Source of the DNA: Lachnospiraceae bacterium Zagget2
GTDB lineage: Bacteria > Bacillota > Clostridia > Lachnospirales > Lachnospiraceae
Assembly: GCA_001941045.1 (NCBI GenBank)
Contig: MSHD01000041.1
Span: forward strand, 1 to 40,680
Reading direction: 5' to 3'
DNA: 40,680 nucleotides
Shown here: piece by piece, positions 5,450-26,092 of the stretch
Layout of the letters: each line of letters opens with the position of its first letter
Numbering within the stretch: the stretch's first letter is position 1
The notes under the pieces: generated by a model
What the model saw: the letters and a program-made list of their open reading frames with translations, nothing else
What the model was told of the DNA's origin: nothing
Database searches by the model: none
Program-made: the position numbers and the translations under genes

Positions 5450-6376
5450 TTACAGATTATAAATTAATTCTACCGCGCTTGCAATATGTTCCGTGGTCAG
5501 TCCGAGGTACTCCAGGATATCCGCATAAGAGTGCGCGGACGATCCGAAGATATCGTTCACACCTACGAACTCGATCGGCTTGCACTCCTTGCAGAGAGCC
5601 TCTGCAATCGCTCCGCCGAGACCGCCGATCACGCTGTGCTCCTCAGCCGTCACAACGCCCTTGCAGCCCTTCGCAAGCTCGCAGACCATCTCTTTGTTGA
5701 GCGGCTTGATCGTGCTGACGTTTACAACCTTTACGGAAATCTTGCCGGCGAGCTTCTCAGCCGCCTCGAGAGCCTTGCCTACCATGATGCCGCAGGCAAA
5801 TACGACAACGTCGGTACCATCTCTTAAGACCTTCGGATCCAGCGTGAACTCTGCGCCTTCCTCGGTCACGTTCTCATAATCGTTACGATTCAGGCGGATG
5901 TACATCGGGCCCTCATGGGAAGCCATGTACTTCGTCACCTCAACCGCCTCGTTCGAGTCAGCCGGAACAAAGACAGACATGTTCGGAATCACGCGCATAT
6001 AAGCGATATCGTCGATCGACTGATGCGTCGCGCCATCCGCGAAATCTGACGCGCCCGCGGAGGAACCGCAGATCTTCACGTTCAGTTTGCCGATCGCCAC
6101 GCTCTGACGGATCTGATCGTAAGCACGTCCTGCGGAAAACACCGCGAACGAGTTCGTGAACGGGATCTTGCCGACTCTCGACAGGCCGCCCGCTACGGAG
6201 GTCATGTCCGCCTCAGCGATACCCATCTCAACATGCTGCTCCGGAAGCGCCAGCTCTGTCAACTTGCCCATCGTGGAACCGCACAGGTCAGCGTCAAGCA
6301 CTACAATGTTTCTGTTTTCCTTTGCCAGGGCGACCAGAGTCTCGCCATAAGCTTTTCTTTGACTGGTATAAGCCAT
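5450..6376 (-). CDS. Transketolase, C-terminal subunit
   Basis: A 308-aa protein matching the pyrimidine-binding and C-terminal domains of transketolase. The block EMGIAEADMTSVAGGLSRVG (about 52-71) contains the Glu that activates the thiamine diphosphate ring. The C-terminal domain carries EEHSVIGGLGGAIAE. The N-terminal half is encoded by the preceding gene, 15 nt away, so the two subunits form one split transketolase, as often seen in clostridial and archaeal sugar operons. It would transfer a two-carbon ketol unit between sugar phosphates or from hydroxypyruvate. The operon context suggests a dedicated catabolic transketolase rather than the housekeeping one. Confidence 0.92.
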   Translation of the reverse strand: MAYTSQRKAYGETLVALAKENRNIVVLDADLCGSTMGKLTELALPEQHVEMGIAEADMTSVAGGLSRVGKIPFTNSFAVFSAGRAYDQIRQSVAIGKLNVKICGSSAGASDFADGATHQSIDDIAYMRVIPNMSVFVPADSNEAVEVTKYMASHEGPMYIRLNRNDYENVTEEGAEFTLDPKVLRDGTDVVVFACGIMVGKALEAAEKLAGKISVKVVNVSTIKPLNKEMVCELAKGCKGVVTAEEHSVIGGLGGAIAEALCKECKPIEFVGVNDIFGSSAHSYADILEYLGLTTEHIASAVELIYNL

Positions 6377-6391
6377 TCTGATTTCCCTCCT

Positions 6392-7213
6392 TTATGAAAG
6401 CTCCGCAAGAGCCTGCTCGTACTGCTCTTTCGTGAGCGCCGCGTTGTGGAATCCAACCTGATTTTCAGCGAAGCTGACGCCCTTGCCCTTTACGGTATGG
6501 GCGATGATCGCGGTGGGCTTGCCCTTGTACTCATCTGCGTCGTCAAGCGCCTTCACGATCTCTTCCATGTTATGTCCATCGATCTCAATGACGTTCCAGC
6601 CGAAAGCCGCCCACTTCTCAGCAAGGTTGCCGCTGTCCAGGCGATCCTTGATCTTGCCCATAGCCTGAAGGCCGTTGTTGTCGATGATCGCGCACAGATT
6701 GTCCATCTTCTTTGCGCCCGCAGCCATCGCTGCCTCCCAGATCTGTCCCTCATTCTGCTCGCCGTCGCCGACCAGAACGTAGACATTGTTCGGCTTGTCA
6801 TCCATCTTCAGACCGATCGCCATGCCAAGTCCAAGGCTCAGGCCCTGTCCGAGGGAACCTGTGCCGGCCTCAATACCGGGCGTTCCAAGATGCGGATGTC
6901 CCTGCAGATAGAATCCGACATCCTTGCAGTGCTGCAGATCCTCCACCGGGAAGAAGCCTGCCTCTGCCAGTGCGGAATACTGAAGAATCGCGACATGACC
7001 CTTCGAAAGAAGGAAATAATCGCGTCCTTCCCAATCCGGGTTCTTCGGATCGTATTTCATCTTATAGAAATACAATGCCGCGACCAGATCTGCGCTCGAG
7101 CAGCTCCCGCCTACATGACCGGCCACTCCCACGCCGATACACTTCATGCAGTCTTTTCTCAGAAGCTTAGCCTTCGCCTCCAGAGATTCCAGAAGTTCCT
7201 TTGAATAACTCAT
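6392..7213 (-). CDS. Transketolase, N-terminal (TPP-binding) subunit
   Basis: A 273-aa protein corresponding to the thiamine-diphosphate pyrophosphate-binding half of transketolase. Visible motifs are HVGGSCSSADLVAALYF (about 32-48), SKGHVAILQYSALAE, the family turn GTGSLGQGLSLGLGMA, and the TPP-Mg motif VGDGEQNEGQIWEA followed by IIDNNGLQ. It is complete for this subunit and needs the partner gene immediately downstream for activity. The upstream SDR gene ends 39 nt before it, so SDR, both transketolase subunits and garR form one transcript from the GntR-controlled promoter at 8043-8071. Confidence 0.93.
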   Translation of the reverse strand: MSYSKELLESLEAKAKLLRKDCMKCIGVGVAGHVGGSCSSADLVAALYFYKMKYDPKNPDWEGRDYFLLSKGHVAILQYSALAEAGFFPVEDLQHCKDVGFYLQGHPHLGTPGIEAGTGSLGQGLSLGLGMAIGLKMDDKPNNVYVLVGDGEQNEGQIWEAAMAAGAKKMDNLCAIIDNNGLQAMGKIKDRLDSGNLAEKWAAFGWNVIEIDGHNMEEIVKALDDADEYKGKPTAIIAHTVKGKGVSFAENQVGFHNAALTKEQYEQALAELS

Positions 7214-8888: not shown

Positions 8889-10340
8889 TCAGGCATTGTA
8901 AGTACTGGCTGAGGTGTTGCCGCCGTGACCGGTCCAGTTCGTGTGGAACACCTGTCCTCTGGGCTGGTCCACGCGCTCGTAGGTGTGCGCGCCGAAGTAG
9001 TCACGCTGCGCCTGCAAAAGGTTCGCCGGCAGCCGGTCTGTCGTGTAGCCATCAAAATAGGAAAGCGCGGAGCTGATCGCCGGCATCGGAACGCCGATCT
9101 GTGCCGCGAAAGCGACTACATCGCGCCATGCCGGAACCAGGGACTCGATGGTCTCCGCAAAGTAATCGTCCAGCAGCAGGTTCTGAAGCTCCGGATTCTT
9201 GTCATAGGCCTCCTTGATCTTGCCAAGGAAGACGCTGCGGATGATACAGCCGCCGCGCCACATCAGCGCGATGCCGCCGTAATTCAGATTCCAGCCGTAG
9301 GTCTTCGCCGCCGTGCGCATCAGCGTGTAGCCCTGCGCATAGGAAATAATCTTACTGGCATACAGCGCGCGGCGCAGCTTTTCGAGCATTTCGTCGCGGT
9401 CGCCGGTGAAAGCCGGGATCCTGTGCGGATAGCGCTTTGACGCCTCCACACGCTCGTCCTTCATCGCGGAAAGGCAGCGCGCAAACACGGCCTCGCCGAT
9501 CAGCGTCAGCGGCACGCCCTCGTCGAGCGCGGCGATGCCGGTCCACTTGCCGGTTCCCTTCTGTCCGGCCGTGTCCAGGATCTTGTCTACCACAGCCTCG
9601 CCGTTCTCATCTTTATAGCCGAGAATATCTCTCGTGATCTCGATCAGATAGCTGTCGAGCTCCGTCTTATTCCAGTCTGTGAAGACCTGATGCATCTCCT
9701 CGTTCGTCATGCCGAGACCATCCCGCATCAGCTGGTAAACCTCGCAGATCAGCTGCATATCGCCGTACTCGATTCCGTTATGTACCATCTTCACGAAATG
9801 TCCGGCGCCGTTCTCTCCCACCCAGTCACAGCAGGGGGAGCCGTCCTCCACCTTCGCGCAGATCGCCTGGAAAATGGGCTTTACATACGGCCAGGCCGCC
9901 GGGCTGCCGCCGGGCATCATGCTCGGTCCCTTCAGCGCGCCTTCCTCTCCGCCGGAAACGCCGGTGCCCACATAGAGAAGGCCCTTGCTCTCTACATATT
10001 CCGTGCGGCGAATCGTATCCGGGAAATGGGAATTGCCGCCGTCGATAATAATATCGCCCGGCTCCATCACCGGCAGAAGCTGCTCGATCATACTGTCGAC
10101 CGCCTCGCCCGCCTTCACCATCATGAAGACCTTTCTCGGTTTCTCCAGGCTGTCCGCCAGCTCCTGCAGCGAATGGCAGCCGATGATATTCTTCCCGGCC
10201 GCCCGTCCGGAGACAAACGCGTCCACTTTCGAGGTCGTACGGTTATACACGGCGACCGTGAAGCCCTTTGACTCCATGTTCATAACCAGATTTTCTCCCA
10301 TGACGGCAAGGCCGATCAGGCCGATATCTCCTTTTTTCAT
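8889..10340 (-). CDS. gnd: 6-phosphogluconate dehydrogenase, decarboxylating
   Basis: A 483-aa enzyme that oxidatively decarboxylates 6-phosphogluconate to ribulose 5-phosphate. The N-terminal Rossmann motif GLIGLAVMGENLVMNM is intact and is followed by YNRTTSKVD, the family's NADP-binding region. GVSGGEEGALKGPSMMPGG is the substrate-binding signature, and the catalytic HFVKMVHNGIEYGDMQ block follows. The C-terminus RGQVFHTNWTGHGG is typical of full-length enzymes. I chose the ATG at 10340, with AGGAGG upstream, because the longer frame would overlap the kinase gene. It lies 13 nt after that kinase and probably shares its transcript. No clear terminator separates it from the gntR promoter. 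Confidence 0.96.
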   Translation of the reverse strand: MKKGDIGLIGLAVMGENLVMNMESKGFTVAVYNRTTSKVDAFVSGRAAGKNIIGCHSLQELADSLEKPRKVFMMVKAGEAVDSMIEQLLPVMEPGDIIIDGGNSHFPDTIRRTEYVESKGLLYVGTGVSGGEEGALKGPSMMPGGSPAAWPYVKPIFQAICAKVEDGSPCCDWVGENGAGHFVKMVHNGIEYGDMQLICEVYQLMRDGLGMTNEEMHQVFTDWNKTELDSYLIEITRDILGYKDENGEAVVDKILDTAGQKGTGKWTGIAALDEGVPLTLIGEAVFARCLSAMKDERVEASKRYPHRIPAFTGDRDEMLEKLRRALYASKIISYAQGYTLMRTAAKTYGWNLNYGGIALMWRGGCIIRSVFLGKIKEAYDKNPELQNLLLDDYFAETIESLVPAWRDVVAFAAQIGVPMPAISSALSYFDGYTTDRLPANLLQAQRDYFGAHTYERVDQPRGQVFHTNWTGHGGNTSASTYNA

Positions 10341-10353
10341 ACGCTCTTTCCTC

Positions 10354-11433
10354 CTATCTCTGCACGCGTGCATTTCCCGCGTAAATATCCCACACCTGCT
10401 TTTCATCCGCCGGCTCCGCATAGTCATTCAGGCTCGTCGTCGCAAGCACACCGGTCGCCCAGCCAAAATGCAGGCAATCCTCAGCGGAAAATCCGGAAAT
10501 AATGCCATAGAGCAGGCCGCCGGTGAATCCGTCGCCGCCGCCGATGCGGTCCATGATCGGAATCGGACGCGGCTCCTCCACATACCAGCCTCCGTCCGCG
10601 AGCAGGACGGCTCCCCACAGATGCTCATTCGCGGAGACCACCTGGCGAAGCGTGGTCGCGAAGGCCTTTGTATTCAGATATTTCTCCTGCGCCTTCAGGA
10701 TCATCGTATGGAAGCTCTCGACCTTGGATGCCAGGTCCTTTCCTCCGGCTTCGGGTCCTGTGAAGCCAAGGCAGAGCTGGAAGTCTTCCTCATTTCCGAT
10801 CAGGACATCCGACACGGACGCGAGCTCATGGAAAGCTGCCGCCAGCTCCTCCTCACGGCCTTTCCAGAAGGTCGCGCGGTAATTCAGGTCAAAGGACACC
10901 AGCGTTCCATGTGCCTTCGCGGCTTTCGCCATCTCAAGGCAGCAGCGGGTCGTCTCCGGACTCATCGCCGCGATCAGGCCGCTCAAATGCAGGATCCCGA
11001 CGCCCTCCTCACCGAAAATGCGCTCCAGATCATAATCAGAAGCATCCAGCGTGCGGCCCACCTCGCCGGCGCGGTCGTTCCAGACGCGCGGCGCGCGCAG
11101 ACCAAAGCCGGAATCCGCGATATTGATCTGATGACGGTATCCCCAGGGGCCGCCCTGCGGAACCGACGGGCCTTCAAAGGCGATGTTTCTGGCACGCAGC
11201 TGAGACTGAATAAATGCCGAAACCGGGCTGCCCTCGACAAACTTCGTCAGGGCAAGACAGGGCTTGCCGAGCGAGGAAGACACGTTCAGCACATTCGTCT
11301 CCGCGCTGGTCGATCTCATATAGAAACGGTCACTGTTCTGCACCGCCATCCGGTCCTCCGGAATCAGCCTCACACCCATACTGGTCGGGCAGGCAATCGC
11401 ATACTTGTAATTTTCTCTTACAGGAACATTCAT
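10354..11433 (-). CDS. PfkB family sugar kinase (2-keto-3-deoxygluconate kinase-like)
   Basis: A 359-aa ribokinase/PfkB-fold kinase. The C-terminal anion-hole motif RIGGGDGFTGGLLYG carries the catalytic Asp, and the LIGNEEDFQLCLGF segment is the family's central signature. The N-terminal part (NVSSSLGKPCLALTKFVEGSP) is the substrate lid region. Length and motifs fit KdgK-type 2-dehydro-3-deoxygluconokinases, but fructokinase-type specificity cannot be excluded. It has a GGAGGATG-type ribosome site and its own promoter at 11480-11508. It is followed by 6-phosphogluconate dehydrogenase, so the pair probably serves hexonate use. No copy of the GntR operator is visible upstream. Confidence 0.85.
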   Translation of the reverse strand: MNVPVRENYKYAIACPTSMGVRLIPEDRMAVQNSDRFYMRSTSAETNVLNVSSSLGKPCLALTKFVEGSPVSAFIQSQLRARNIAFEGPSVPQGGPWGYRHQINIADSGFGLRAPRVWNDRAGEVGRTLDASDYDLERIFGEEGVGILHLSGLIAAMSPETTRCCLEMAKAAKAHGTLVSFDLNYRATFWKGREEELAAAFHELASVSDVLIGNEEDFQLCLGFTGPEAGGKDLASKVESFHTMILKAQEKYLNTKAFATTLRQVVSANEHLWGAVLLADGGWYVEEPRPIPIMDRIGGGDGFTGGLLYGIISGFSAEDCLHFGWATGVLATTSLNDYAEPADEKQVWDIYAGNARVQR

Positions 11434-13120: not shown

Positions 13121-13777
13121 TCACAGTTTGCGGAGCAGATTTTCCATTGTCTCCTCATTTGTCAGCACCATGAGATGGTCATCACTCCCGATCACGGTCT
13201 GCGGTCCCGGCATGAATTCTGTGCCGCCTGCGGCGTGTATCACTGCGACGATATAGACATCATATCTCGTCCGGATATCGGAATCAAGAATACTCCTGCC
13301 AAGCCATTCCGGCAGCGGCGTGATTTCATAGACCGAGTAACCATCCTTCAGATCGACATAGTCGAACACATGCTCACTGTTGTACTTCACCGCCGCGCGC
13401 TTTGCCGAATCCCGGTTTGGATGGATGACCTCGTCAGCGCCGATCTTCAGCAGAAACTTCACATGTGCGTCATTGGCCGCCTGGCTGACCACATACTGCG
13501 CGCCAAGCTCTTTCAGAAGACTCGTAACCTCAAGGTTTCTCTGAAAATCATGGCTGATACACACGAAACAGACATCGAAATTCCCGACGCCTATCTTTTT
13601 CAGCACGCTCTCACGCGTACAGTCCGCGATCAGACTGCTCGTCGCTATGTCGAGCAGATCCTCCAGCGCCCGCTCATCCCTGTCAACAATCATAATTTCA
13701 TTCTTCATCTTCGCCAGGTCGCGACAGAGATAACTCCCGAAATCGCCCAGCCCGATGATCAAAAATGACTTCTTCAT
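13121..13777 (-). CDS. ktrA: Potassium uptake regulator KtrA/TrkA family (RCK)
   Basis: A 218-aa cytoplasmic gating subunit with one TrkA-N Rossmann domain (G9-L-G-D-F-G14, acidic V31-D32 after beta-2) and a TrkA-C domain (about 135-218). This is the one-unit size of KtrA/KtrC rather than the duplicated proteobacterial TrkA. In the family, an octameric ring binds ATP/ADP or NAD(H) and opens the KtrB channel. The gene lies 18 nt downstream of the membrane subunit gene, so the two form a K+ uptake operon. Its end is 4 nt from the end of the convergent carboxypeptidase gene, with no terminator visible between them. Confidence 0.92.
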   Translation of the reverse strand: MKKSFLIIGLGDFGSYLCRDLAKMKNEIMIVDRDERALEDLLDIATSSLIADCTRESVLKKIGVGNFDVCFVCISHDFQRNLEVTSLLKELGAQYVVSQAANDAHVKFLLKIGADEVIHPNRDSAKRAAVKYNSEHVFDYVDLKDGYSVYEITPLPEWLGRSILDSDIRTRYDVYIVAVIHAAGGTEFMPGPQTVIGSDDHLMVLTNEETMENLLRKL

Positions 13778-13795
13778 GCATTCCCCTCCTCTGAC

Positions 13796-15157
13796 TTAAC
13801 CCACAACGATATCTTCCTCCGGGTAACGAATCTCACCCGTATGTCTTCGCTCCGTGAAGGACATGGCAAAGGACAGACTGCCAACCCTCCCGAGAAACAT
13901 CAATATCATGATCGTGATCCGCGACAGGGCGTTCAGCTCACGCGTCAGACCGGTCGACATACCCACCGTGCCGATCGCGGAGAATGCCTCCAGCAGAACG
14001 TCTGCGAGCGGCAAATCCTGTCCGGTCAGCAGCACCATAACCGCGAAGAGCGCGAGTGAAAAATTGATAAAGATCACAACGCTTGCGCGTTTTACATCGT
14101 CCTCCTCCAGCCTGCGCCGGAACACTGCGCAGTCCCTTTCATGGAGGAGGTAGGCCCTGATATGAAGCAGGACCACGACCAGCGTTGTCGTCTTGATACC
14201 GCCGGCTGTGGAGCCGGGGCTCCCGCCGACGAACATAAGCAGCATCGTCAGCACCTTACCCGCACTCGACATCGCCGCCAGATCAATGGTATTAAAACCA
14301 GCTGTGCGGGGCGTGACCGCCGCGAAGAAGGCCGCGAGAAACCGCTCTCCTGCTCCCATATCCGCGAACAGGCCATTTCTTTCCGTCAGCAGAAACAGCA
14401 GCGTGCCTCCCACAAGCAGCGCCGCCGTCGCCGTCAGGACAATCTTTGTCTGCAGCCGGTAGCGCCGCCAGTGCCAGCGGTTGAGCAGAAGATCCTCCCA
14501 CACGAGAAAGCCGATGCCCCCGATGATGATCAGCGCACTCAGCACAAACACGACGAACGGATCGCCGGCATAAGCGGTAAAGGATGAATAAGCCTCCTGA
14601 GCGCCCATCAGGTCAAAGCCCGCATTGCAGAACGCAGAGACTGCATGAAAAATACCATAATAAATGCCGCGCAGGAGTCCAAACTCCGGCGCGAAGCGGA
14701 GCGCGAGCAGCGCCGCGCCGATCCCCTCAAAGCACAGCGTTCCTATAATAATCCTGTGCACAAGCTTCACCGTTCCACGAAGCTGCAGGGTGTTGAGGCT
14801 CTCGTGAATCAGTTCCCGCCCTTTCAGGCCTATCCTTCTTCCCAGCGCCATCATGGCAAAGGAACCGATCGTAATAAACCCAAGCCCGCCGATCTGAATC
14901 TGCACGAGCAGAACCAGCTGCCCGAACAGCGTCCAGTGCGTCCAGGTGTCATAAACAACAAGCCCCGTCACACAGGTCGCCGATACCGAGGTAAAAAGAG
15001 CGCCCAGAAACGAAGTCTCCTCCCCCGTTCTGGACGCAAAAGGCAGCATCAGAAGCAGCGCGCCGGCCAGAATAATACCCAGAAAACCGAGCATAATCAT
15101 CATCGTCCTGGAGAGACGAACGCCGGAAAACGCGATGGAACTTCTGTCATTTTTCAT
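13796..15157 (-). CDS. ktrB: TrkH/KtrB family potassium uptake protein
   Basis: A 453-aa membrane protein of the superfamily of K+ transporters, built from four M1-P-M2 repeats. Pore-loop segments with the single filter glycine are visible, for example SATCVTGLVV, HAVSAFCNAGFDL and TPRTAGFNTIDL. MFVGGSPGSTAGGIKTTT is the gating-loop region of TrkH/KtrB proteins. KtrB uses Na+ or H+ to drive or stimulate K+ entry and requires KtrA, encoded directly downstream. The ribosome site is AAAGGAGG. A moderate promoter lies at 15187-15215, and transcription may also enter from the small ORF upstream. Confidence 0.94.
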   Translation of the reverse strand: MKNDRSSIAFSGVRLSRTMMIMLGFLGIILAGALLLMLPFASRTGEETSFLGALFTSVSATCVTGLVVYDTWTHWTLFGQLVLLVQIQIGGLGFITIGSFAMMALGRRIGLKGRELIHESLNTLQLRGTVKLVHRIIIGTLCFEGIGAALLALRFAPEFGLLRGIYYGIFHAVSAFCNAGFDLMGAQEAYSSFTAYAGDPFVVFVLSALIIIGGIGFLVWEDLLLNRWHWRRYRLQTKIVLTATAALLVGGTLLFLLTERNGLFADMGAGERFLAAFFAAVTPRTAGFNTIDLAAMSSAGKVLTMLLMFVGGSPGSTAGGIKTTTLVVVLLHIRAYLLHERDCAVFRRRLEEDDVKRASVVIFINFSLALFAVMVLLTGQDLPLADVLLEAFSAIGTVGMSTGLTRELNALSRITIMILMFLGRVGSLSFAMSFTERRHTGEIRYPEEDIVVG

Positions 15158-15544: not shown

Positions 15545-15583
15545 ACAGAGAACACAACAATTTGCACTGCAATCATCTACAGT

Positions 15584-15667
15584 ACAAACTGATCAGGCAT
15601 CAGGCCATTCCTGAGTGCCGGGCTCGCGTAAGGGCAGCAGGTAAGCGACATCTGCGGGACAGTAGTA
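15584..15667 (+). ncRNA. NiCo (czcD) riboswitch aptamer
   Basis: The conserved NiCo blocks are present in order: ACTGATCAGGCA (15588-15599), GCCGGGC (15617-15623), GGGCAGCAG (15632-15640) and CTGCGGGACAGT (15652-15663). The hairpin GGCATCAGG / CCTGAGTGCC forms the second helix. The arrangement follows the crystallised NiCo aptamer as I remember it. It sits between a good promoter and a cation diffusion facilitator gene, the usual partner. Members bind Co2+ and Ni2+ cooperatively, and Fe2+ sensing has also been reported for this class. Confidence 0.88.
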
Positions 15668-15702: not shown

Positions 15703-15753
15703 ATACCCTGACATATGGAAACCCGGGCAAAAGGAATGGAGGATTTTTCGATT

Positions 15754-16653
15754 ATGAAAGAAGAAAAGAAACTGATGGCCAGAGTCTCGACAATCGGCAT
15801 CGCGGGCAATGTACTGCTGTCCGCATTCAAACTGATCGCCGGTTTGCTGGGAAATTCCGGAGCCATGATCTCCGACGCGGTACACTCGCTCTCGGATGTC
15901 CTGGCAACCTTCATTGCGCTGATCGGCGTAAAACTCTCAAAACGCGAAAAAGACGCGGACCACCCCTATGGACACGACCGCTTCGAATGTGTCGCCTCGG
16001 AAATTCTGGCGGTGATTCTCTTTGTGACGGGTCTCGGGATCGGTAAGACCGGGCTGGACACGATCTTTGCCGGAAATTATGATTCACTTGCAATCCCCGG
16101 CCTGCTCCCGCTCATTGCCGCGGTCGTCTCCATCGTCTCAAAGGAGGCCATGTTCCGCTACACAAGAGCCTGCGCGCGAAAGCTGAATTCCTCTGCATTT
16201 ATGGCCGACGCCTGGCATCACCGCTCCGACGCCTTCTCCTCGATCGGTTCGCTGATCGGTATCGCGGGCGCGCGCGCCGGTATGCCGGTTCTCGACGCAG
16301 TAGCGAGCGTCGTCATCTGCGTTTTCATTTTAAAGACAGCTGTGGATATTTTCCGGGATGCGATCCGGAAGATGACGGACTGCGCCTGCGATGAGAATTA
16401 CACGGAGGCCGTCCGGGAATTTATTAAAAAACAGGACGGCGTCAGGGACATCGACCTTCTGCAGACCAGAATGTTCGGCGAAAAAGTCTATATTGATGTG
16501 GAGATCGCCGTGGACGGCACGCTCCCGCTGCAACGCGCACATGCGATCTCCGAGGACGTGCACGACGGGCTGGAGTGCAGTTTTGACAACATCAAGCACG
16601 TCATGATTCATGTCAATCCCTACGAACCGAAAGCTGCCCAGAATACCCCTTGA
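15754..16653 (+). CDS. Cation diffusion facilitator transporter (probable Ni2+/Co2+/Fe2+ exporter)
   Basis: A 299-aa CDF-family exporter with about six membrane helices and a C-terminal cytoplasmic domain of about 85 aa (from VREFIKKQDGVRDIDLL to HVMIHVNPYEP). The transport-site motifs are SDAVHSLSD in helix 2 and ADAWHHRSDAF in helix 5, and a hydrophilic DHPYGHDRFE segment lies in the first cytoplasmic loop. I chose the ATG at 15754, which follows GGAGG, over in-frame ATGs at 15715 and 15736 with poor sites. CDF proteins exchange divalent metal for protons. Control by a NiCo riboswitch (15584-15702) makes nickel, cobalt or iron the likely substrate. Confidence 0.93.
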   Translation: MKEEKKLMARVSTIGIAGNVLLSAFKLIAGLLGNSGAMISDAVHSLSDVLATFIALIGVKLSKREKDADHPYGHDRFECVASEILAVILFVTGLGIGKTGLDTIFAGNYDSLAIPGLLPLIAAVVSIVSKEAMFRYTRACARKLNSSAFMADAWHHRSDAFSSIGSLIGIAGARAGMPVLDAVASVVICVFILKTAVDIFRDAIRKMTDCACDENYTEAVREFIKKQDGVRDIDLLQTRMFGEKVYIDVEIAVDGTLPLQRAHAISEDVHDGLECSFDNIKHVMIHVNPYEPKAAQNTP

Positions 16654-18799: not shown

Positions 18800-18821
18800 C
18801 TTCACTCCTCCAGGCTTCCGC

Positions 18822-19610
18822 TCACGGGAGTATCCCTGTTTCCTCCAGGCAGGCAAAAGACTTCTGAAGGGCCTCATAGCCATCCATCTCGAGAAGCACC
18901 GACACCTCCTCGTCGCAGTCCTTCATAAGCTCCGCAAACGGTTTCCAGTCAATTCTACCTGAACCGAGGGGAAGATGCAAGTCATCCTTTAAATCATTAT
19001 CATTAATGTGAAAATGCCGTATCCACGGCTTCAGATTCCGGAACCAGCTCTGTGGCGGCTCGTCCTTCCCAAACACCGCCGCATGGGCATAGTCGAGGCA
19101 GATGCCAAAACGCGGCTCGCTCTCCATCGCCCTTCCGATGCGCGCCAGCTCCCCGCTGTCCCGCTCAAACATATTTTCCATATAGACGCAGAGCCCTGGA
19201 AACTCCCGCAGCACCTCCGACCAGAACTCGACATTCCGCGCGAGCCAGGAGTCCAGGTAAGCCTGTACTCTGAAATCGGGCAGAAGGGCCGCGTGAAAAA
19301 TCACGCCGCGGATTCCCAGTTCCTCCGCGACCTGCATGGACTGTCTCACCCGCTTCCTCGAATCCTCCCGGATCAGAGAATCGTCGCTGTGCACGGTAAT
19401 GTCGAGAAATGTCCCATGCAGCGTGTCCATCGACCGATCCCTTTTCAGATTTTTGTAGAAGGCAATCCTGTCCGCACACGCCATCTCATCGTCCAGCATA
19501 TTCGGATTCATAAAATCATTGTACTCAAATGCGGCGCCGCGCCGTTCCGACAGCTCCAATAGTCGGTCGATATCCCCTGTCTCCGGGATAATCTCAAAAA
19601 GCCTTCCCAT
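18822..19610 (-). CDS. Sugar phosphate isomerase/epimerase-like TIM barrel protein
   Basis: A 262-aa protein of the AP-endonuclease-2/xylose-isomerase-like TIM barrel superfamily. Candidate metal ligands at strand ends are visible: HGTFLDITVHS, GVIFHAALLP, CVYMENMFERDSGE, GICLDYAHAAVFG, IRHFHINDND and SVLLEMDGYE. These give the His/Glu/Asp set expected of a divalent-metal enzyme. Substrate is unknown; relatives isomerise sugars or inosose, or nick DNA. It follows the cyclic-nucleotide-binding gene by 17 nt and precedes the methyltransferase by 22 nt. The link to the signalling cassette upstream is positional only. Confidence 0.8.
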   Translation of the reverse strand: MGRLFEIIPETGDIDRLLELSERRGAAFEYNDFMNPNMLDDEMACADRIAFYKNLKRDRSMDTLHGTFLDITVHSDDSLIREDSRKRVRQSMQVAEELGIRGVIFHAALLPDFRVQAYLDSWLARNVEFWSEVLREFPGLCVYMENMFERDSGELARIGRAMESEPRFGICLDYAHAAVFGKDEPPQSWFRNLKPWIRHFHINDNDLKDDLHLPLGSGRIDWKPFAELMKDCDEEVSVLLEMDGYEALQKSFACLEETGILP

Positions 19611-19627
19611 TTCACATCAGATCCCGT

Positions 19628-20125
19628 CTAAATATTTTTCTCAATCTCGTCGACGAGCGCTGCATACACCTTCAGAAGATTGTCATTTTCCTTCCTGAGA
19701 TTTCTGCACAGGTTCGCGGAGATAAACCAGAGTACCTTGCAGCCGGCCATCGGATTCTTCTCGCAGTAATCATGGAATTTTTCCTGCGACATCCGCAGCG
19801 TATGACATTTCGTCAGCGCACGGACCGTCGCGGAACGCACATCCTGATCGATCAGCGCGATCTCGCCGAACACACAGCTCTCCGTATCCTCCAGCTTCGC
19901 GCACACATATTCCTCGCCGTACAGCGTCGTCTTCAGAATCTCGACCTGTCCCTCCAGAAGAATATACATGCAGTCGCCCTCGCTGCCTTCCTCGATGATG
20001 CGGCTCCCTTCCGGGAAGTCCTCCTCCTCCAGGATATCCAGAAACGCGCCGCGCTCTGTCTCCGGCAGCTCTGCCAGCATGGGAAAACGTCCCAGCCTTT
20101 CAATCAACATTTCTCTGTTCATCAC
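19628..20125 (-). CDS. Stand-alone cyclic-nucleotide-binding domain protein
   Basis: A 165-aa protein made of one cNMP-binding domain (about 10-130) and a C-terminal helix, with no DNA-binding domain, so it is not a Crp-type regulator. The phosphate-binding cassette FGEIALIDQDVRSATV retains the Gly-Glu that contacts ribose and the Arg that contacts the cyclic phosphate, which suggests real cAMP or cGMP binding. The start is GTG at 20125 or ATG at 20122; both overlap the stop codon of the ion-channel gene, so translation is coupled. An adenylate cyclase is encoded 4 kb upstream in the same transcript. Inference: a soluble cAMP-sensing subunit for that channel. Confidence 0.88.
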   Translation of the reverse strand: MMNREMLIERLGRFPMLAELPETERGAFLDILEEEDFPEGSRIIEEGSEGDCMYILLEGQVEILKTTLYGEEYVCAKLEDTESCVFGEIALIDQDVRSATVRALTKCHTLRMSQEKFHDYCEKNPMAGCKVLWFISANLCRNLRKENDNLLKVYAALVDEIEKNI

Positions 20126-21309
20126 ACCTCATCTCCTAACACAATTAAGCCCATTCTCGCCGTGATCACAAGATCGTCCGGTGGATTTAATACAGGTTTA
20201 TTTCTCTCAAGGGTCTTGATTTCCTGCAGCCTGGACACGATCTTCGAGTAATCGGTAGATTTCTGCGCGTCGGCCAGCACCGCGTGCTTCAGCTCCCGCT
20301 CGCCTCCCATATTGTCCAGGACGCCCATGGCCATAATATGTCCATGTTCTTTATAATAATCCGCTATCTCCCGGTATGTCTTTCCGACCCAGCGGTTTTC
20401 GATCGGAAATACCTGCACGCTGATCCCGTCCCCGTTGTCAAACAGGGCGGACAGCACTCTGGCCATCCCGCTGCCGCTCGTCGCGGTGGACAGAATATAG
20501 CGCGTATACTCCTCCGTGTAAATAACCTCGTCGCAGTGGTTTGTCTCCAGATAATGCTTATATTTTTTTGTCTGTACCTGCGCGCAGATGTGGATCTTCG
20601 GGTTCATACCCTTCAGCGCCAGCATCGCCGCAAATACACGGGAATCCACGAGCTCCGGACTCAGCCGGTCGTGATCATCCCCGAGAATCAGGGCGTTCGA
20701 CGCCCTCGCTGCATTCGCCTTCTGAAGCGTCTGCTCCTCTGAGAAATCGCCACGGACGTACTTGATCCCACGCAGATCCTCGTCCTCCAGCAGCGCACTC
20801 ATATCATCCTCGTCCCGGGAATTCACCAGTACCAGATCCTGAAAGCCCACGCCGTGGTTCTTCCGGACAATATCCTCCAGCAATGCCTTCAGATTATTCT
20901 TCCATCCGCAGATAATAATGTGATTTTTCATACTCTGCAATTTCCTGGTACCTCTCCTCGTCTTCATCCGATGATCGATCATCGTCGAAGAAACATAACC
21001 GGTGATCGCCGACACGCCAAACATTCCGATGAGCAGAATCACAATCCCGATCATCCTGCCCGACACCGTGATCGGGTAGCGCTCCGCGAAATCCGCCCCA
21101 AACAGCGTCGCCGTGTTCCAGAGAAGAATGTCGGAGAACTTCGCTCCCGCCGGGCCGCCATACTCGAAAAACCAGTAAGCCAGGCAGCACAGGGCATAGA
21201 GCAGGAGAATTCCGAGGATCGCCCTCAGCTGCGGTTGTTTAACCACGTATCGGAGGCGATCCTTACGCTTCCTGCGCTCTGTTTTCTGATCTGCCCTTTT
21301 CTCTGTCAT
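20122..21309 (-). CDS. Two-TM ion channel-like protein with RCK domains and non-canonical filter
   Basis: A 395-aa protein with a basic N-terminus, TM1 (about 30-48), a pore helix and loop (about 60-80), TM2 (about 85-105), then RCK/TrkA-N-type cytoplasmic domains starting with NHIIICGWKNN. The body is that of calcium- or nucleotide-gated K+ channels such as MthK. The pore, however, reads TATLFGADFAERYPIT where a K+ channel has TVGYGD-x2-P-x-T, so the selectivity filter is replaced. It may pass another ion or act as a sensor. Its ATG overlaps the fecR-like stop by 4 nt and its stop overlaps the cNMP-binding gene start, so all three are co-expressed. Confidence 0.85.
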   Translation of the reverse strand: MTEKRADQKTERRKRKDRLRYVVKQPQLRAILGILLLYALCCLAYWFFEYGGPAGAKFSDILLWNTATLFGADFAERYPITVSGRMIGIVILLIGMFGVSAITGYVSSTMIDHRMKTRRGTRKLQSMKNHIIICGWKNNLKALLEDIVRKNHGVGFQDLVLVNSRDEDDMSALLEDEDLRGIKYVRGDFSEEQTLQKANAARASNALILGDDHDRLSPELVDSRVFAAMLALKGMNPKIHICAQVQTKKYKHYLETNHCDEVIYTEEYTRYILSTATSGSGMARVLSALFDNGDGISVQVFPIENRWVGKTYREIADYYKEHGHIMAMGVLDNMGGERELKHAVLADAQKSTDYSKIVSRLQEIKTLERNKPVLNPPDDLVITARMGLIVLGDEV

Positions 21310-22583
21310 GAGTCAGAACCGGCGGAGCTTGTGTCTGTCCACGTCAGGGTTGTGTCCGCAGTAATCGCAGTGCTGAAATCAAATGCCGTCGAGCCACTGT
21401 ACCAGCTTCCGCTCGCAGTTGGCATCAGCACCGGTTCCGTGGCACAGCTCCCGCTCGTCACAGTCTGCGTACAGAAGGTTTCTCCATTATTATAAGTAAA
21501 AGTTACCGTGTAACTTGTTGTCGTCGTACTGCCGGAAGAACTGCTGCCCGACGAACTGTCTTCTGAACTGCTACTATCAGATGAACTGCTCGAAGAACTG
21601 CCTCCCGAGGTGTCGCTGTCTGAACTGCTGTCAGAGGACGCTTCCCCCGTGGAACTGTTATCTGCCGACGTCGTCTCATCGTCTGCCTCGACATCCTCGG
21701 CATCCGTCGAATTATTCTGTTGAGTTGTCGTCTTATTCTCTACTTTCGTGTCTGACTTATCCGTATTTCCGCCGGACTCTTCCTCTGCCTCCGGGGACGC
21801 CTCCACATCTGTATCCGCATCGTCCGCTTCCTTCAGCGCATCCAGAGCTTCCTGTATTTCCTCCCGGCTAAAGCACAGCTCCACATCATCCCGCTCCAGG
21901 CAGTCAAACAGAAACTCCAGCGCACAAACCGGGAAGCGCTCCAGCGTCGCCTCCTGAAGCTCGTTCGGAAAATATTCGGAAATCTCCTCATCCCCGTGAA
22001 CATTCACGCCTGAACCCTTAGGGATCTGCCACTCCAGGCTCTCATCCTCCACTGTGCCGTCCGGGAAGATCAGCCGCGAAGCGACCTCGCCATCCAGCAC
22101 CGTCACATAGGCATAGGAATGCTCATCCTCATACACAATCTCAACACGGAACACCGTACCGCGAACCGCCATCGTCGAGTTCGGTACCGTAACCTCGTAA
22201 CTGGATTCATCGTTCAGCTTATTCACCAGCTGATTGACGACAGCTCCCTCCTCCAGGTGAATCACCGTTTTGCTGTTCGCGCTCGTTCCCTCCGCTTCCA
22301 GCGTCAGGCGCGTCCCCGGTTCAAGCAGCACGTACTTGTCATTGTCCAGCATCAGAATGACACTGCTCTCCCCATCGACGAGCAGCTCGTCCCCGGACTC
22401 CAGCTGCATGTCGGCATAGGCGTCCAGCTCGCCCACGGATTCCCGCGTCACCGTGGCCGACCCCTCCACGGACAACACCTTGATCAGACGATAAGCATCC
22501 TCCTTCGTGAACTGTCCATATGCAATAAATGCCAGTAACAATACAGCGACCGCCGCGGCTCCCGTGATGATCCACTTTCTCAT
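21306..22583 (-). CDS. FecR-domain membrane-anchored protein with C-terminal Listeria-Bacteroides repeat
   Basis: A 425-aa protein with one N-terminal TM helix (about 5-25). An extracellular FecR domain follows (about 38-200), recognisable by VEGSATV, LESGDELLVDGESSVILML, GTRLTLE, GAVVNQLV and TMAVRGTVFRV. An acidic segment, a low-complexity Ser/Thr/Asp linker (about 270-355) and a final single InlB B-type repeat (YTVTFTYNNGETF...) complete it. Gram-negative FecR relays iron-siderophore signals; stand-alone FecR domains in Firmicutes have no assigned role. I chose the ATG at 22583 (AAAGGGG 10 nt upstream), and a GTG two codons earlier is possible. It follows the secreted repeat protein by 22 nt and overlaps the channel gene. 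Confidence 0.85.
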   Translation of the reverse strand: MRKWIITGAAAVAVLLLAFIAYGQFTKEDAYRLIKVLSVEGSATVTRESVGELDAYADMQLESGDELLVDGESSVILMLDNDKYVLLEPGTRLTLEAEGTSANSKTVIHLEEGAVVNQLVNKLNDESSYEVTVPNSTMAVRGTVFRVEIVYEDEHSYAYVTVLDGEVASRLIFPDGTVEDESLEWQIPKGSGVNVHGDEEISEYFPNELQEATLERFPVCALEFLFDCLERDDVELCFSREEIQEALDALKEADDADTDVEASPEAEEESGGNTDKSDTKVENKTTTQQNNSTDAEDVEADDETTSADNSSTGEASSDSSSDSDTSGGSSSSSSSDSSSSEDSSSGSSSSGSTTTTSYTVTFTYNNGETFCTQTVTSGSCATEPVLMPTASGSWYSGSTAFDFSTAITADTTLTWTDTSSAGSDS

Positions 22584-22605
22584 TCGCACTCTTCCCCTTT
22601 ATGTC

Positions 22606-24156
22606 TCAATTAAATACGTATTCACTATCTTCATTCACATAGAAGGATATTCCTGACGCGTAATTGCAGGAATCCTTCTTTACAGTAAGCGCTGTATCCA
22701 GCGTATAGGAATAACCATTCACCAGATAATAGCTGCCCGCCTCGGAAATATTTGTATAGGCGATTTTCCAGGTGGCTGTCAGCGACACGTCTTTCGACGG
22801 CATTGTGAACGTGACTTCCGGCTGATATAACGTACTGTCATACTCCCAGCCCGCAAACGTAAAGCCCTTCAACGTCGGGGCTGCCGGAGCTGTTACACTG
22901 TCTCCTTCCGCTACGCTTTCTGTCGTGCTGCCGCCTTCATAAGAAAAGCTGTAAAGCTTTTTCCAGACGCCGTACAGAGTAGAATAACTATCGCCTGTCT
23001 TCAGATCGTTCAGTGTGACCTGCGCATCCGCGCTGTATTCGGCCGTAGTCGCATCAGCGGACGTAGCCCAGCCCTTGAATACATAACCGCTGGCTGTCGG
23101 CGTGGGCAGGGAAAGAGCTGATGAAGCTGAACTCAGGGGGATCAGGCTGCTGCTTGTCAAACTGTTTTCACCAGGTTTATTTTCATTATAAGAAAAGGTT
23201 CCATATTGACAGGTATTAGAGCTTGTCAGCTCTACTGTATTATACTGCACATTGTTAATGCCATCATATTCAGTATACTGTGTTGTACTGCTGTCTGTGA
23301 TTAATTGATCAATACTGACAGCTTCCCCATTGGAGAAGAATGCATAACCATTTTCTGTCGTTTCCGGGTAGGACGAGCTATCCAAAAGGAGAAGCTTGCT
23401 CCTGCCTGTACCTATTGATTCCCCTCCAATTGTCAATGCATTACCTGTCTCGTTCACTACCTTGATCAGCTGTTTCGTATCAGACCTTTTCCAATAAGTT
23501 GTAAGCTCCAGACTTGTAGTACCTGACGTGATTCCGTAATCTGTATCTGTACTTAATTTATATTGTTTTGAATCTTCATCAAATTCATAATAAAAAGTAA
23601 AAGATGAATTCGTACCTGTTGCTGTGCTATCGTTATTGTCCTTCATAGACCAGCTGACCAGACTATAATCATCTTTACCTTCGGTAGAGATTGCATACGA
23701 TGCACATACAGACGGATATGGACTACCAGATGATATCTGTATAGCCAGGTTAGACGAACTGCCACCATCTACCGACATGCTGATATACGGTGCATACACA
23801 ACATACAAATTAGGATTGACAATTAAATCAAAAATTTCTCTCAAATGAAGTATCTGACCACTTCGAAATACATAATTATATGTATCATTGCTATAAAACC
23901 ACCCTACCACTGCATCATTGCTTGAAAAGGTTATTCCGCTCAGTTCCGTGCCATTTACATCATAATCGTGATCAATCGATGTAGTCTGTCCGTTATAGTG
24001 AAAATTAATAGTATATGTCGTCGTCCCCTCGGCCCGGCTCTCCATCCCCGTCCCGAGCAGCATAATCCCAACCGCCAACACCGCGGTCAGTACCAGTTTC
24101 GCCAACTTTTCAAGTCTCGCCTTCCTCGCCAACATAAATCGCTCCTTCTTGCTCAT
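22606..24156 (-). CDS. Secreted protein with InlB B-type (Listeria-Bacteroides) repeats
   Basis: A 516-aa exported protein. A basic N-terminus and hydrophobic stretch (about 19-41, LVLTAVLAVGIMLLGTGMES) form a signal peptide. Several beta-grasp InlB B-type repeats follow: one at the N-terminus (YTINFHYNGQTTSIDHDYDV), one ending VFKGWATSADA, and a clear one near the C-terminus (YSFSYEGG... to VSLTATWK). No sortase motif or cell-wall domain is seen, so retention is unclear. The central half is Ser/Thr/Asn/Tyr-rich and its DNA is visibly more AT-rich than neighbouring genes. It has its own promoter at 24194-24222 and is followed closely by the FecR-domain gene, which ends in the same repeat type. 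Confidence 0.85.
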   Translation of the reverse strand: MSKKERFMLARKARLEKLAKLVLTAVLAVGIMLLGTGMESRAEGTTTYTINFHYNGQTTSIDHDYDVNGTELSGITFSSNDAVVGWFYSNDTYNYVFRSGQILHLREIFDLIVNPNLYVVYAPYISMSVDGGSSSNLAIQISSGSPYPSVCASYAISTEGKDDYSLVSWSMKDNNDSTATGTNSSFTFYYEFDEDSKQYKLSTDTDYGITSGTTSLELTTYWKRSDTKQLIKVVNETGNALTIGGESIGTGRSKLLLLDSSSYPETTENGYAFFSNGEAVSIDQLITDSSTTQYTEYDGINNVQYNTVELTSSNTCQYGTFSYNENKPGENSLTSSSLIPLSSASSALSLPTPTASGYVFKGWATSADATTAEYSADAQVTLNDLKTGDSYSTLYGVWKKLYSFSYEGGSTTESVAEGDSVTAPAAPTLKGFTFAGWEYDSTLYQPEVTFTMPSKDVSLTATWKIAYTNISEAGSYYLVNGYSYTLDTALTVKKDSCNYASGISFYVNEDSEYVFN

Positions 24157-24193
24157 CCTTGAATCCCATATTTTAAATTCCCTTTACCAGCCT

Positions 24194-24222
24194 ATCTTAA
24201 TACCAGATTATTTTTTTCACAA
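24194..24222 (-). promoter_or_regulatory. Probable promoter before the repeat-protein gene
   Basis: On the minus strand TTGTGA (24222-24217) and TAAGAT (24199-24194) are separated by 17 nt, about 40 nt before the start at 24156. The region is AT-rich and contains repeated TTGTGA words and a short GTGAAAAATCAC inverted repeat just upstream that might be an operator. Confidence 0.5.
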
Positions 24223-24273
24223 GTGATTTTTCACAAAATTTGACAAAATAAAGCAAAATTTCCTGTTTTTCGC

Positions 24274-24293
24274 GCTGTAGCACCCGCTACAGC
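24274..24293. other. Stem-loop at the cyclase stop codon
   Basis: GCTGTAG and CTACAGC form a perfect 7-bp stem with a 6-nt loop spanning the stop codon of the adenylate cyclase gene. No U-tract follows on the minus strand, so it is at most a weak or partial transcription boundary before the repeat-protein promoter. Confidence 0.5.
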
Positions 24294-26092
24294 ACCTCGT
24301 CCACGCTGTACACCTGGATCTCGTGTGCCTTTCCCTTCAGGTGCATTCTGCCCATCTCTGTAACCTTCAGGCGGTCGTGCAGCGCTTTATAGACCTCCTC
24401 ACCGATCAGAATCTGGTCCTTTTTTGCTTTTCCTTCCAGACGGGACGCGGTATTCACAGTATCTCCAATGGCCGTGTAGTCCATCCGGAAGTCGCAGCCG
24501 ATATTGCCGACAATGGCTGAGCCGCAGTTGATGCCGATACCGACATTGACCTTCCTGCCGAAGCGCTCCAGCATCGATTTCTCCATATCCTTCGTGCCCT
24601 CCACGATATCCCGCGCCGTGCAGACCGCACGGTAAACATAGTCGTCGAGATCAAAGGGCGCGTTAAAGACAGCCATCGTCGCGTCGCCGATAAACTTGTC
24701 GAGCGTGCCGCCGTTGCGGAAAATCGCCTCCGTGGTCAGCGTCAGGTAGCGATTCAGAATCTCCACGACCTCCTCCGCCGGAAGCTCCTCCGACATTGGC
24801 GTGAAGCCTCGGATATCGACGAACAGCACCGCAATGTCACGCCGCTCCCCGCCGAGCACCGGGTTGAATTCGCCGCTGCGGGAGACCTCCTCCACGATCT
24901 GCGGCGCAACGTATTTCTTGAAAGCCTTCACAACTTCGCGGCGCTTTTTCAGCTCCATCAGGTAGTTCACGATCACGGACAGAATATAGACAGTGAGCAT
25001 AATGATCGGCAGACTGACCAGATGAATCACCCAGCCCTGCCGAAACAGCCAGGTCCCGAGCAGCAGCTCCACAATACAGATTGCAATTCCCAGTAGCGCT
25101 GCCGACAGCGGCCTCATTCTGCGGCACAGCATGCAGTAAAGCCCGACGACCAGCGCCATGAGAAACGCCGTCAACGCCGTGTTCACCGGTACCGCCGTCT
25201 TTCCCTCCATCAGTGCCTCTATAATATTGGCGTGAATCTCGACGCCGTACATCTGCTCGCTTTTCTGAATCGCCACATGGAAAGAGTCCTGCATCCCCGA
25301 CGCGTAGGCGCCTACCACCACGATACAGTCCTTGAAAATCCGCGGATCGACCGTCCCGTCCAGCACGTCGCAAAGCGACACCGATTCATAATCCCCGCTG
25401 TCACCCGAAAAAGCAAATTGAAACTTGTTATTCTGGTACAGCCTCGGCATCTGCGGCTCCTCGCCGATATATTCCATATAGGCGGCATAACTCTTATAGG
25501 CAAGACTGTAGATCGTCTCTTCCTCCGTTTCCACATAAGCAATCGCCTGGCGGATGTAACCGTCTTTGTCCTGCGTTGTATTTGCGAAGCCCTCTCCCAC
25601 AGCCTCCCGAAGCGCATCATAAGAGCGCTCGACCATATTTACATGGAGTTCATCCACATAATACTCTCCGCTGTCATCCGTGCCGACACTCCTGTCGTAA
25701 ACCAGATTTACAGCCGTAATTACATTTCCAGCCTCCGCGCAGGCCTCCGCGAAGCGGGTATCTCCCTCCTCGTCCATCTCGTTGATATACAGAATATCAA
25801 AGGCAATAACTGCCGGCTGGTTCTCCTCATCTGCGGACAGCGCCTCCACAAGCTGTGCAGGAATGTCCCGCGTCCAGGTATTGTACTGCCCCAGCGCCTC
25901 CAGAGAGCGCTCATCGATCTTGATAATCTTGATCCGGGAGTTTGTGACCTCCGCCCGCTGCCACATGAAATCGGTCAGCATCTTGTCAAGAGCAAACAGC
26001 GGCTGCAGCCAGCACAGCAAAAAAGTGATCAGCATAACAATCGCTATGCCGACCACATGCCTGTTCACTTTCCCGCGTATCCGTTCCCTCAT
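24287..26092 (-). CDS. CHASE2-domain membrane adenylate cyclase (class III)
   Basis: A 601-aa sensor cyclase. TM1 (about 12-33) precedes an extracellular CHASE2 domain (about 34-302), followed by three membrane helices (about 305-378) and a cytoplasmic class III catalytic domain (about 416-595). Catalytic residues are complete: metal-binding Asp426 (FVDIRGF) and Asp470 (KFIGDATMAVF), adenine-selecting Lys466 and Asp538 (MDYTAIGD), and transition-state Asn547 and Arg551 (NTASRLE). This predicts a functional homodimer making cAMP in response to an extracellular cue. Its ATG overlaps the rsmI stop codon by 4 nt. Downstream in the same direction lie a repeat protein, a FecR protein, an RCK channel and a cNMP-binding protein, the likely output. 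Confidence 0.94.
   Translation of the reverse strand: MRERIRGKVNRHVVGIAIVMLITFLLCWLQPLFALDKMLTDFMWQRAEVTNSRIKIIKIDERSLEALGQYNTWTRDIPAQLVEALSADEENQPAVIAFDILYINEMDEEGDTRFAEACAEAGNVITAVNLVYDRSVGTDDSGEYYVDELHVNMVERSYDALREAVGEGFANTTQDKDGYIRQAIAYVETEEETIYSLAYKSYAAYMEYIGEEPQMPRLYQNNKFQFAFSGDSGDYESVSLCDVLDGTVDPRIFKDCIVVVGAYASGMQDSFHVAIQKSEQMYGVEIHANIIEALMEGKTAVPVNTALTAFLMALVVGLYCMLCRRMRPLSAALLGIAICIVELLLGTWLFRQGWVIHLVSLPIIMLTVYILSVIVNYLMELKKRREVVKAFKKYVAPQIVEEVSRSGEFNPVLGGERRDIAVLFVDIRGFTPMSEELPAEEVVEILNRYLTLTTEAIFRNGGTLDKFIGDATMAVFNAPFDLDDYVYRAVCTARDIVEGTKDMEKSMLERFGRKVNVGIGINCGSAIVGNIGCDFRMDYTAIGDTVNTASRLEGKAKKDQILIGEEVYKALHDRLKVTEMGRMHLKGKAHEIQVYSVDEVL

Follow-up and report, generated by a model that had tools for sequence, protein, structure and literature searches.

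Can a cue at the cell envelope reach an ion channel through cyclic AMP (cAMP) in a clostridial bacterium? The question is raised by five consecutive minus-strand genes in a 40,680-nucleotide stretch of the genome of Lachnospiraceae bacterium Zagget2 (GenBank assembly GCA_001941045.1, contig MSHD01000041.1, positions 1 to 40,680 of the forward strand; hereafter the window). They encode a CHASE2-class III cyclase, an InlB-type repeat protein, a FecR-domain protein, a channel with two transmembrane segments (2-TM) and an RCK domain, and a small protein with a cyclic nucleoside monophosphate (cNMP)-binding domain. A preliminary description of the DNA had proposed them as one cAMP-gated system, and open reading frame positions and Pfam agree with it on the five neighbours and their domains. 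We consider it rather probable that they form an envelope-sensing cAMP cassette, in which FecR and CHASE2 sensing would control cAMP and a docked cNMP subunit would gate the RCK channel, whose pore is probably not K+-selective. Gating of the channel by the cNMP protein is the leading reading.

What survives of the five-gene system is the tie of cNMP to RCK, the tie of FecR to the cyclase, and the retention of adenylate-type residues; what falls is its broad conservation, since the co-occurrence check in other genomes found the full set in one genus only. Outside that genus the parts occur as two modules, FecR with CHASE2-cyclase in Lachnospiraceae and RCK with cNMP mostly in spirochaetes. In the spirochaete phylum, an RCK match at E <= 1e-30 is present in 75 of 247 genomes. 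The 83 listed matches, in 81 loci, were examined together with six Lachnospiraceae loci, locus L035 and, as controls, the ten Bacillota loci that ranked highest among 41 non-self matches. A cNMP gene lies directly downstream of RCK in 30/30 spirochaete loci (one partner frame is partial, and one is cut by a contig end) and in 45 of the 51 further ones, the six unpaired cases being four short RCK channels and two genes truncated where their contigs stop. The control loci, of 10-11 kb each, hold no cNMP gene. The two genes adjoin in both Thalassospirochaeta and a Spirochaeta metagenome-assembled genome, as they do in G116, a member of another Lachnospiraceae genus. A full-length RCK relative is found in 2/150 Lachnospiraceae genera, and in 2/334 in a larger draw. 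A literature search, with subscription journals mostly outside its coverage, gave no description of the pair among the papers it listed, including via CHASE2 or cAMP in Clostridia or Lachnospiraceae, and the accessible part of one spirochaete study names no channel in its organism (PMC9043183).

The RCK protein itself carries a feature that accompanies the pairing. From 77 sequences, AlphaFold predicts a 2-TM RCK subunit (pLDDT 81, pTM 0.62; an earlier prediction with 8 sequences was weak, pLDDT 64), and the best solved match of the model in Foldseek is MthK (367 columns, E 2e-18, TM 0.56 by query length). Two transmembrane segments and the RCK fold thus place it among MthK-type RCK proteins. 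Between two strands of the C-subdomain the model has a helical hairpin (residues 337-349 and 354-366). Of the 98 RCK rows that extend over the C-terminus, 82 show this insert, each of them with a cNMP partner, in a count that omits four rows (two genes truncated at contig ends and the N-terminal halves of two broken frames), includes four pairings set by hand and one insert (L208) missed by the pattern and read by eye, and takes near-identical rows (L168-L171; the window and L067) singly. The insert is lacking in 16 rows (ten Bacillota RCK proteins, four short RCK proteins from spirochaetes, and the upstream member of each of two tandem pairs), and in none of them does a cNMP gene follow directly. 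In both tandem pairs (L187, L189) the insert is confined to the downstream member, which adjoins the cNMP gene. The inserts fall into two types: partners of type A end in tails such as LFSALVEEI, and those of type B in LKLTTALSIALSK or a sequence close to it. When a strict pattern for the A tail is applied, it finds 47/63 type A partners and 0/11 of type B; of the 16 type A partners left unmatched, 15 are near variants by eye and one (L140) is cut, while six rows left unassigned by pattern are type B by eye. That the partner's tail type follows the insert type is suggestive only, because the match reflects one deep split of co-inherited genes. The hairpin is a candidate docking site for the cNMP protein.

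The partner has the look of a receptor. The window protein keeps the phosphate-binding cassette G-E...R-S-A-T, as had been claimed for it (FGE...RSAT), and its profile matches the MloK1 domain. The pocket signature G-E...R is intact in 73 of the 78 partners with data, four near-identical proteins and one other deviating, in an alignment of 79 partners (L136 and L196 are too partial, L067 is identical to the window's, and the pocket of L140 is out of view). A Crp/Fnr regulator was rejected, as the protein is only 165 aa long and has no further Pfam domain; two other cNMP proteins of the same genome (217 and 221 aa) have a Crp/Fnr look by eye.

The pore has changed in the window lineage. Among the 90 rows with the pore in view, 74 retain GYGD, most of them with the same insert and partner, and the family was therefore probably one of K+ channels ancestrally. 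The TVGYG-type filter is missing from the other 16, window included: six Lachnospiraceae rows and ten of one spirochaete clade. The Lachnospiraceae filters vary (GADFAE in the window, GQDFAD in three others, a shortened form in G116), none is canonical, and the first filter glycine aligns with Asp in the window protein. The best tree uniting all 16 rows is rejected (approximately unbiased test, p 0.0012; the tree carries a long-branch warning where the Lachnospiraceae rows join, and the tested group was named after the tree was inspected), so the K+ filter was probably lost twice, independently. The separate spirochaete loss is seen at L173, L176, L177, L182, L184, L187, L189 and L190.

As judged from these alignments, the pore of the window lineage is probably no longer K+-selective and passes other cations. 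There is precedent for such pores. CASTOR, an RCK channel with the filter AD(S/A)GNHA, is reported to be Ca2+-selective, and its D265N mutation abolished activity (PMC6697748); a bacterial channel with a proline-rich filter is reported as a non-selective cation channel (PMC5052707). The alternative that survives best, although we find it unlikely, is that the RCK protein is no longer a channel and has become a filter-less membrane scaffold or receptor, which holds or releases the cNMP protein to act elsewhere. The divergence of the Lachnospiraceae filters from each other and from any canonical form would fit such a loss, but the RCK gene is constrained (dN/dS 0.06-0.14 in four comparisons; both RCK and cNMP are under purifying selection), the 74 rows with GYGD make a channel the probable starting point, and CASTOR indicates that an RCK channel can conduct without TVGYG.

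On the sensor side, the cyclase keeps the hallmarks of its class. Its CHASE2 and cyclase domains both exceed the Pfam cut-off. As the preliminary description had held, it retains the residues that we take to bind metal and adenine and to stabilise the transition state: D426, D470, K466, D538, N547 and R551 do not vary when the window protein is aligned with three relatives. The best profile matches are solved adenylate cyclases, and the product is probably cAMP. Class III cyclases occur in 30/150 Lachnospiraceae genera, FecR in 27/150 and both in 23; FecR is thus found in 23 of the 30 cyclase-bearing genera against 4/120 others (p 4e-17, kinship ignored). In these 150 genera, 24/38 FecR genes have a cyclase no more than 8 kb away, and 21/35 cyclases have a FecR gene within the same distance. 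Among 36 cyclase loci (33 of the 35 class III matches, the window's and one weak match being omitted, plus three same-genus loci), a same-strand FecR-like protein accompanies 23/29 CHASE2-type cyclases and 0/7 others, with some weak scores and with little flank at three of the six misses. Pfam identifies 25 of 27 FecR-like proteins (26 and the window's) as FecR. cNMP proteins occur at 4/29 CHASE2-type loci; the five scanned are cNMP-SpoIIE (L235, L237, L244) and cNMP-DUF2225 (L237, L241) fusions. Their position near FecR and CHASE2-cyclase hints that the output part is exchangeable.

The pair is associated with cyclases at the level of the genome, not of the locus. Class III cyclases are present in 74/75 RCK-bearing spirochaete genomes versus 123/172 others (p 6e-8, kinship again ignored), and in 8/8 pair-bearing versus 1/7 pairless genomes among 15 chosen; in five of the eight the cyclase belongs to the cassette itself.

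Within the genus, the genes come and go together. The RCK family is found in 6/17 genomes at 276 bits or more, the remaining five matches being pore-only and at most 60 bits. In the 15 of 17 genomes where rsmI is detected, it is adjoined by the CHASE2-cyclase in six and by trmN in nine. The window order is rsmI, CHASE2-cyclase, repeat protein, FecR protein, RCK channel, cNMP protein, TIM-barrel protein, trmN; the five genes and the TIM-barrel gene lie in the same order between rsmI and trmN in G154, G150, G162 and G163, and in G155 the two cassette ends are on separate contigs. Protein identity to the window cassette is 55-100% in G154 and 47-66% in G150, G162 and G163, where the repeat protein aligns mostly along its C-terminal ~175 residues. 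In G158 the flanks match the window at 98% (rsmI side) and 88% (trmN side) DNA identity, with 18802-26091 missing and 4 bases between the matches. This empty site makes the TIM-barrel gene part of the unit, and the cassette is an all-or-none removable unit of six genes. Chance neighbourhood is ruled out by the empty-site comparison and by the spread of the RCK-cNMP pair. Between G000 and G154, dS is 0.09-0.22 for the cyclase, RCK, cNMP and TIM genes and 0.31-0.77 for the flanking holB, PSP1 and trmN; FecR (0.36) and the repeat gene (0.71) resemble the flanks. Cassette dS is thus below the flanks for four of six genes in this comparison and mostly so in G150-G162, with no such difference in G150-G163 (poor fit). 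The low values hint at exchange between species. The repeat protein is the fastest-changing and least conserved member (dN/dS 0.52 in G000-G154, 0.13 in G150-G162). An extra 443-aa membrane protein, read by eye, lies between cyclase and repeat protein in G150 and G162 (L068 12699-14030; L069 5541-6872), and the rsmI match adjoining the cassette in G154 (L254) has one stop codon inside.

It could be argued that two independent modules, FecR with CHASE2-cyclase (and the repeat protein) and RCK with cNMP, merely share an insertion site, the pair answering to another ligand or to global cAMP. The far wider spread of cyclases than of full-length RCK relatives among Lachnospiraceae genera, the 80 of 81 spirochaete pair loci with no nearby cyclase, and G161, which has CHASE2-cyclase and FecR and lacks the pair, are what such modules would give. 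We nevertheless find this improbable: both Lachnospiraceae genera with the pair also carry CHASE2-cyclase and FecR, no half-cassette occurs at the rsmI/trmN site among 15 genomes, and the FecR and RCK genes share 4 nt in the window, an overlap replaced in G150 by a 6-nt gap.

In the envelope-sensing cassette that we prefer, FecR and the repeat protein would act outside the membrane with the CHASE2 domain and, on an outside signal, set the activity of the adenylate cyclase. Its cAMP would bind the small cNMP protein, which would dock through its C-terminal tail onto the family-specific hairpin of the RCK domain. In this putative complex, the cNMP protein would be a detached ligand-binding subunit that opens or closes a pore from which the K+ signature is gone and which probably conducts other cations. 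Several observations weigh against this reading, besides the single split behind the insert-tail match and the neglect of kinship in both co-occurrence tests. A cyclase is near the pair at only 1 of the 81 spirochaete loci (30 of them with ~1.5 kb of flank), and the messenger therefore need not come from a local enzyme. In G116 the CHASE2-cyclase with FecR is on a different contig from the pair, and 28/30 cyclase-bearing Lachnospiraceae genera have no full-length RCK relative. The four near-identical cNMP proteins of L168-L171 have G-K...H in place of G-E...R and may not bind cyclic nucleotides, so binding is not universal among partners. Finally, a degenerate filter could mean a non-conducting pore.

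A Pycsar-like defence, in which attack triggers a cyclic nucleotide and the cell is disrupted through the channel once the cNMP protein opens it, shares with the cassette a class III cyclase domain and a cNMP-domain protein whose models match (PADLOC: PycC 92.6 bits, PycTIR 42.8 bits for the cNMP part) and would suit a patchy, all-or-none unit perhaps exchanged between species, but it is most improbable, as PADLOC matches only the shared domains and the cassette has an outside CHASE2 sensor, a FecR partner, an RCK channel, K466 and D538 (presumably adenylate-type) and no TIR domain in the window proteins scanned with Pfam, while spirochaete pairs nearly always stand apart from a cyclase. The preferred cassette can be taken a step further, tentatively: it might be a multi-part ligand-gated cation channel with a separate cNMP receptor on a dedicated hairpin and a K+ filter replaced independently in two lineages, coupled here to FecR and CHASE2 so that an envelope cue becomes a non-K+, possibly Ca2+, signal in this gut bacterium.

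Comparison with known systems sets the arrangement apart. It shares the 2-TM pore and RCK domain with MthK-type channels (and with the BK/Slo gating ring), and differs from them by the hairpin insert, by the cNMP gene that always adjoins it in the rows seen, and by the loss of the K+ filter in this lineage. Like MloK1 and SthK, it links a cyclic-nucleotide-binding domain to a cation pore. In these and the other known cyclic-nucleotide-gated channels the receptor domain is on the pore polypeptide, whereas here, in the window and the pairs seen, it is a separate gene and the channel carries an RCK domain. CASTOR/POLLUX/DMI1 share the RCK domain (profile match to the CASTOR soluble domain, E 4e-9), and we know of no cNMP partner for CASTOR. 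The reported CASTOR pore also lacks TVGYG, with a filter sequence different from that found here (PMC6697748). A FecR-domain gene near a CHASE2-adenylate cyclase has already been reported in Campylobacterota (PMC9239204); here, unlike in that cluster, a channel and a cNMP protein follow, and phosphodiesterase and TPR domains are absent from the eight cassette and flanking proteins scanned with Pfam.

The features are collected in Table 1. Pfam scores are 145.6 bits (CHASE2) and 90.3 (Guanylate_cyc) for the cyclase, 60.1 for the Flg_new/InlB B-repeats, 33.7 for FecR, 50.5 (Slo-like_RCK) and 40.4 (TrkA_N) for the RCK protein, whose pore is sub-threshold as Ion_trans_2 (16.1, cut-off 22.5), and 72.4 for cNMP_binding. 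CHASE2, class III cyclase and FecR are each matched once in the window genome. Hydropathy gives the cyclase one hydrophobic segment before CHASE2 and three after, the FecR and repeat proteins one N-terminal segment each, the RCK protein two and the cNMP protein none. The 4-nt overlaps said to join the last three genes are present (FecR/RCK 21306-21309, RCK/cNMP 20122-20125), as is one between cyclase and rsmI (26089-26092). The FecR protein was also said to end in the repeat type of its neighbour; the module is repeat-like by eye, but Pfam gives no match there. No Rfam matches or notable repeats were found inside the cassette. Promoter-like sites number 21 versus 6.2 in shuffles, on both strands and mostly intragenic; one (24236-24207, minus) is in the gap preceding the repeat gene. 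Elsewhere in the window, TrkA-/TrkH-type K+ uptake genes (13121-15157) follow the cassette at a distance of a few kb, beyond the present/absent block, and a NiCo riboswitch (15579-15664, 65.1 bits) is directly upstream of a cation-efflux gene (15715-16653).

Table 1. Positions of the cassette, its parts and related genes (window coordinates unless a locus is named)
Feature	Position	Strand	Basis
CHASE2-class III cyclase, 601 aa; 4-nt overlap with rsmI	24287..26092	minus	Pfam, residue alignment, profile match, hydropathy
InlB-type repeat protein, 516 aa, N-terminal hydrophobic segment, fast evolving	22606..24156	minus	Pfam, gene comparison, dN/dS
FecR-domain protein: N-terminal membrane segment, Ser-rich linker, C-terminal repeat-like module	21306..22589	minus	Pfam, hydropathy; repeat-like module by eye
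2-TM RCK channel, 395 aa, predicted MthK-like fold, without TVGYG filter	20122..21309	minus	Pfam, profile match, alignment, predicted structure
RCK pore stretch, residues 58-79	21073..21138	minus	sequence, alignment
GADFAE in RCK pore, residues 71-76	21082-21099	minus	aligned with TVGYGD of spirochaete homologues
RCK C-subdomain insert, predicted helical hairpin, residues 337-366, candidate cNMP docking site	20212..20301	minus	structure prediction, row comparison
cNMP-binding protein, 165 aa, sole Pfam domain cNMP_binding, conserved C-terminal tail	19628..20125	minus	Pfam, alignment
Xylose-isomerase-like TIM-barrel protein, sixth member of present/absent unit	18822..19610	minus	Pfam, empty-site comparison
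Present/absent block	18802..26091		comparison with empty site of G158 (locus L252)
cNMP fused to SpoIIE-type phosphatase or DUF2225 near FecR/CHASE2-cyclase	L235 6097-7275; L241 6301-7431; L244 950-2314		domain scan
cNMP fused to SpoIIE-type phosphatase or DUF2225 near FecR/CHASE2-cyclase	L237 565-1743 (by eye), 5581-6723 and 10151-11341 (both by domain scan)		

The five-gene set has been seen in one genus, and its two-gene RCK-cNMP module is widespread. If the proposed reading is true, a channel with a detached receptor and a candidate docking element matched to it, retained in two phyla, would represent a new layout for gating, and RCK and cNMP would make up a two-protein system open to mixing and measurement. 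The two apparent losses of the K+ filter in one RCK family make the path from a K+ channel to a channel for other cations testable by comparison. In bacteria, cAMP would gain a rapid, non-transcriptional output, including in Lachnospiraceae, a family with class III cyclases in 30 of the 150 genera searched.

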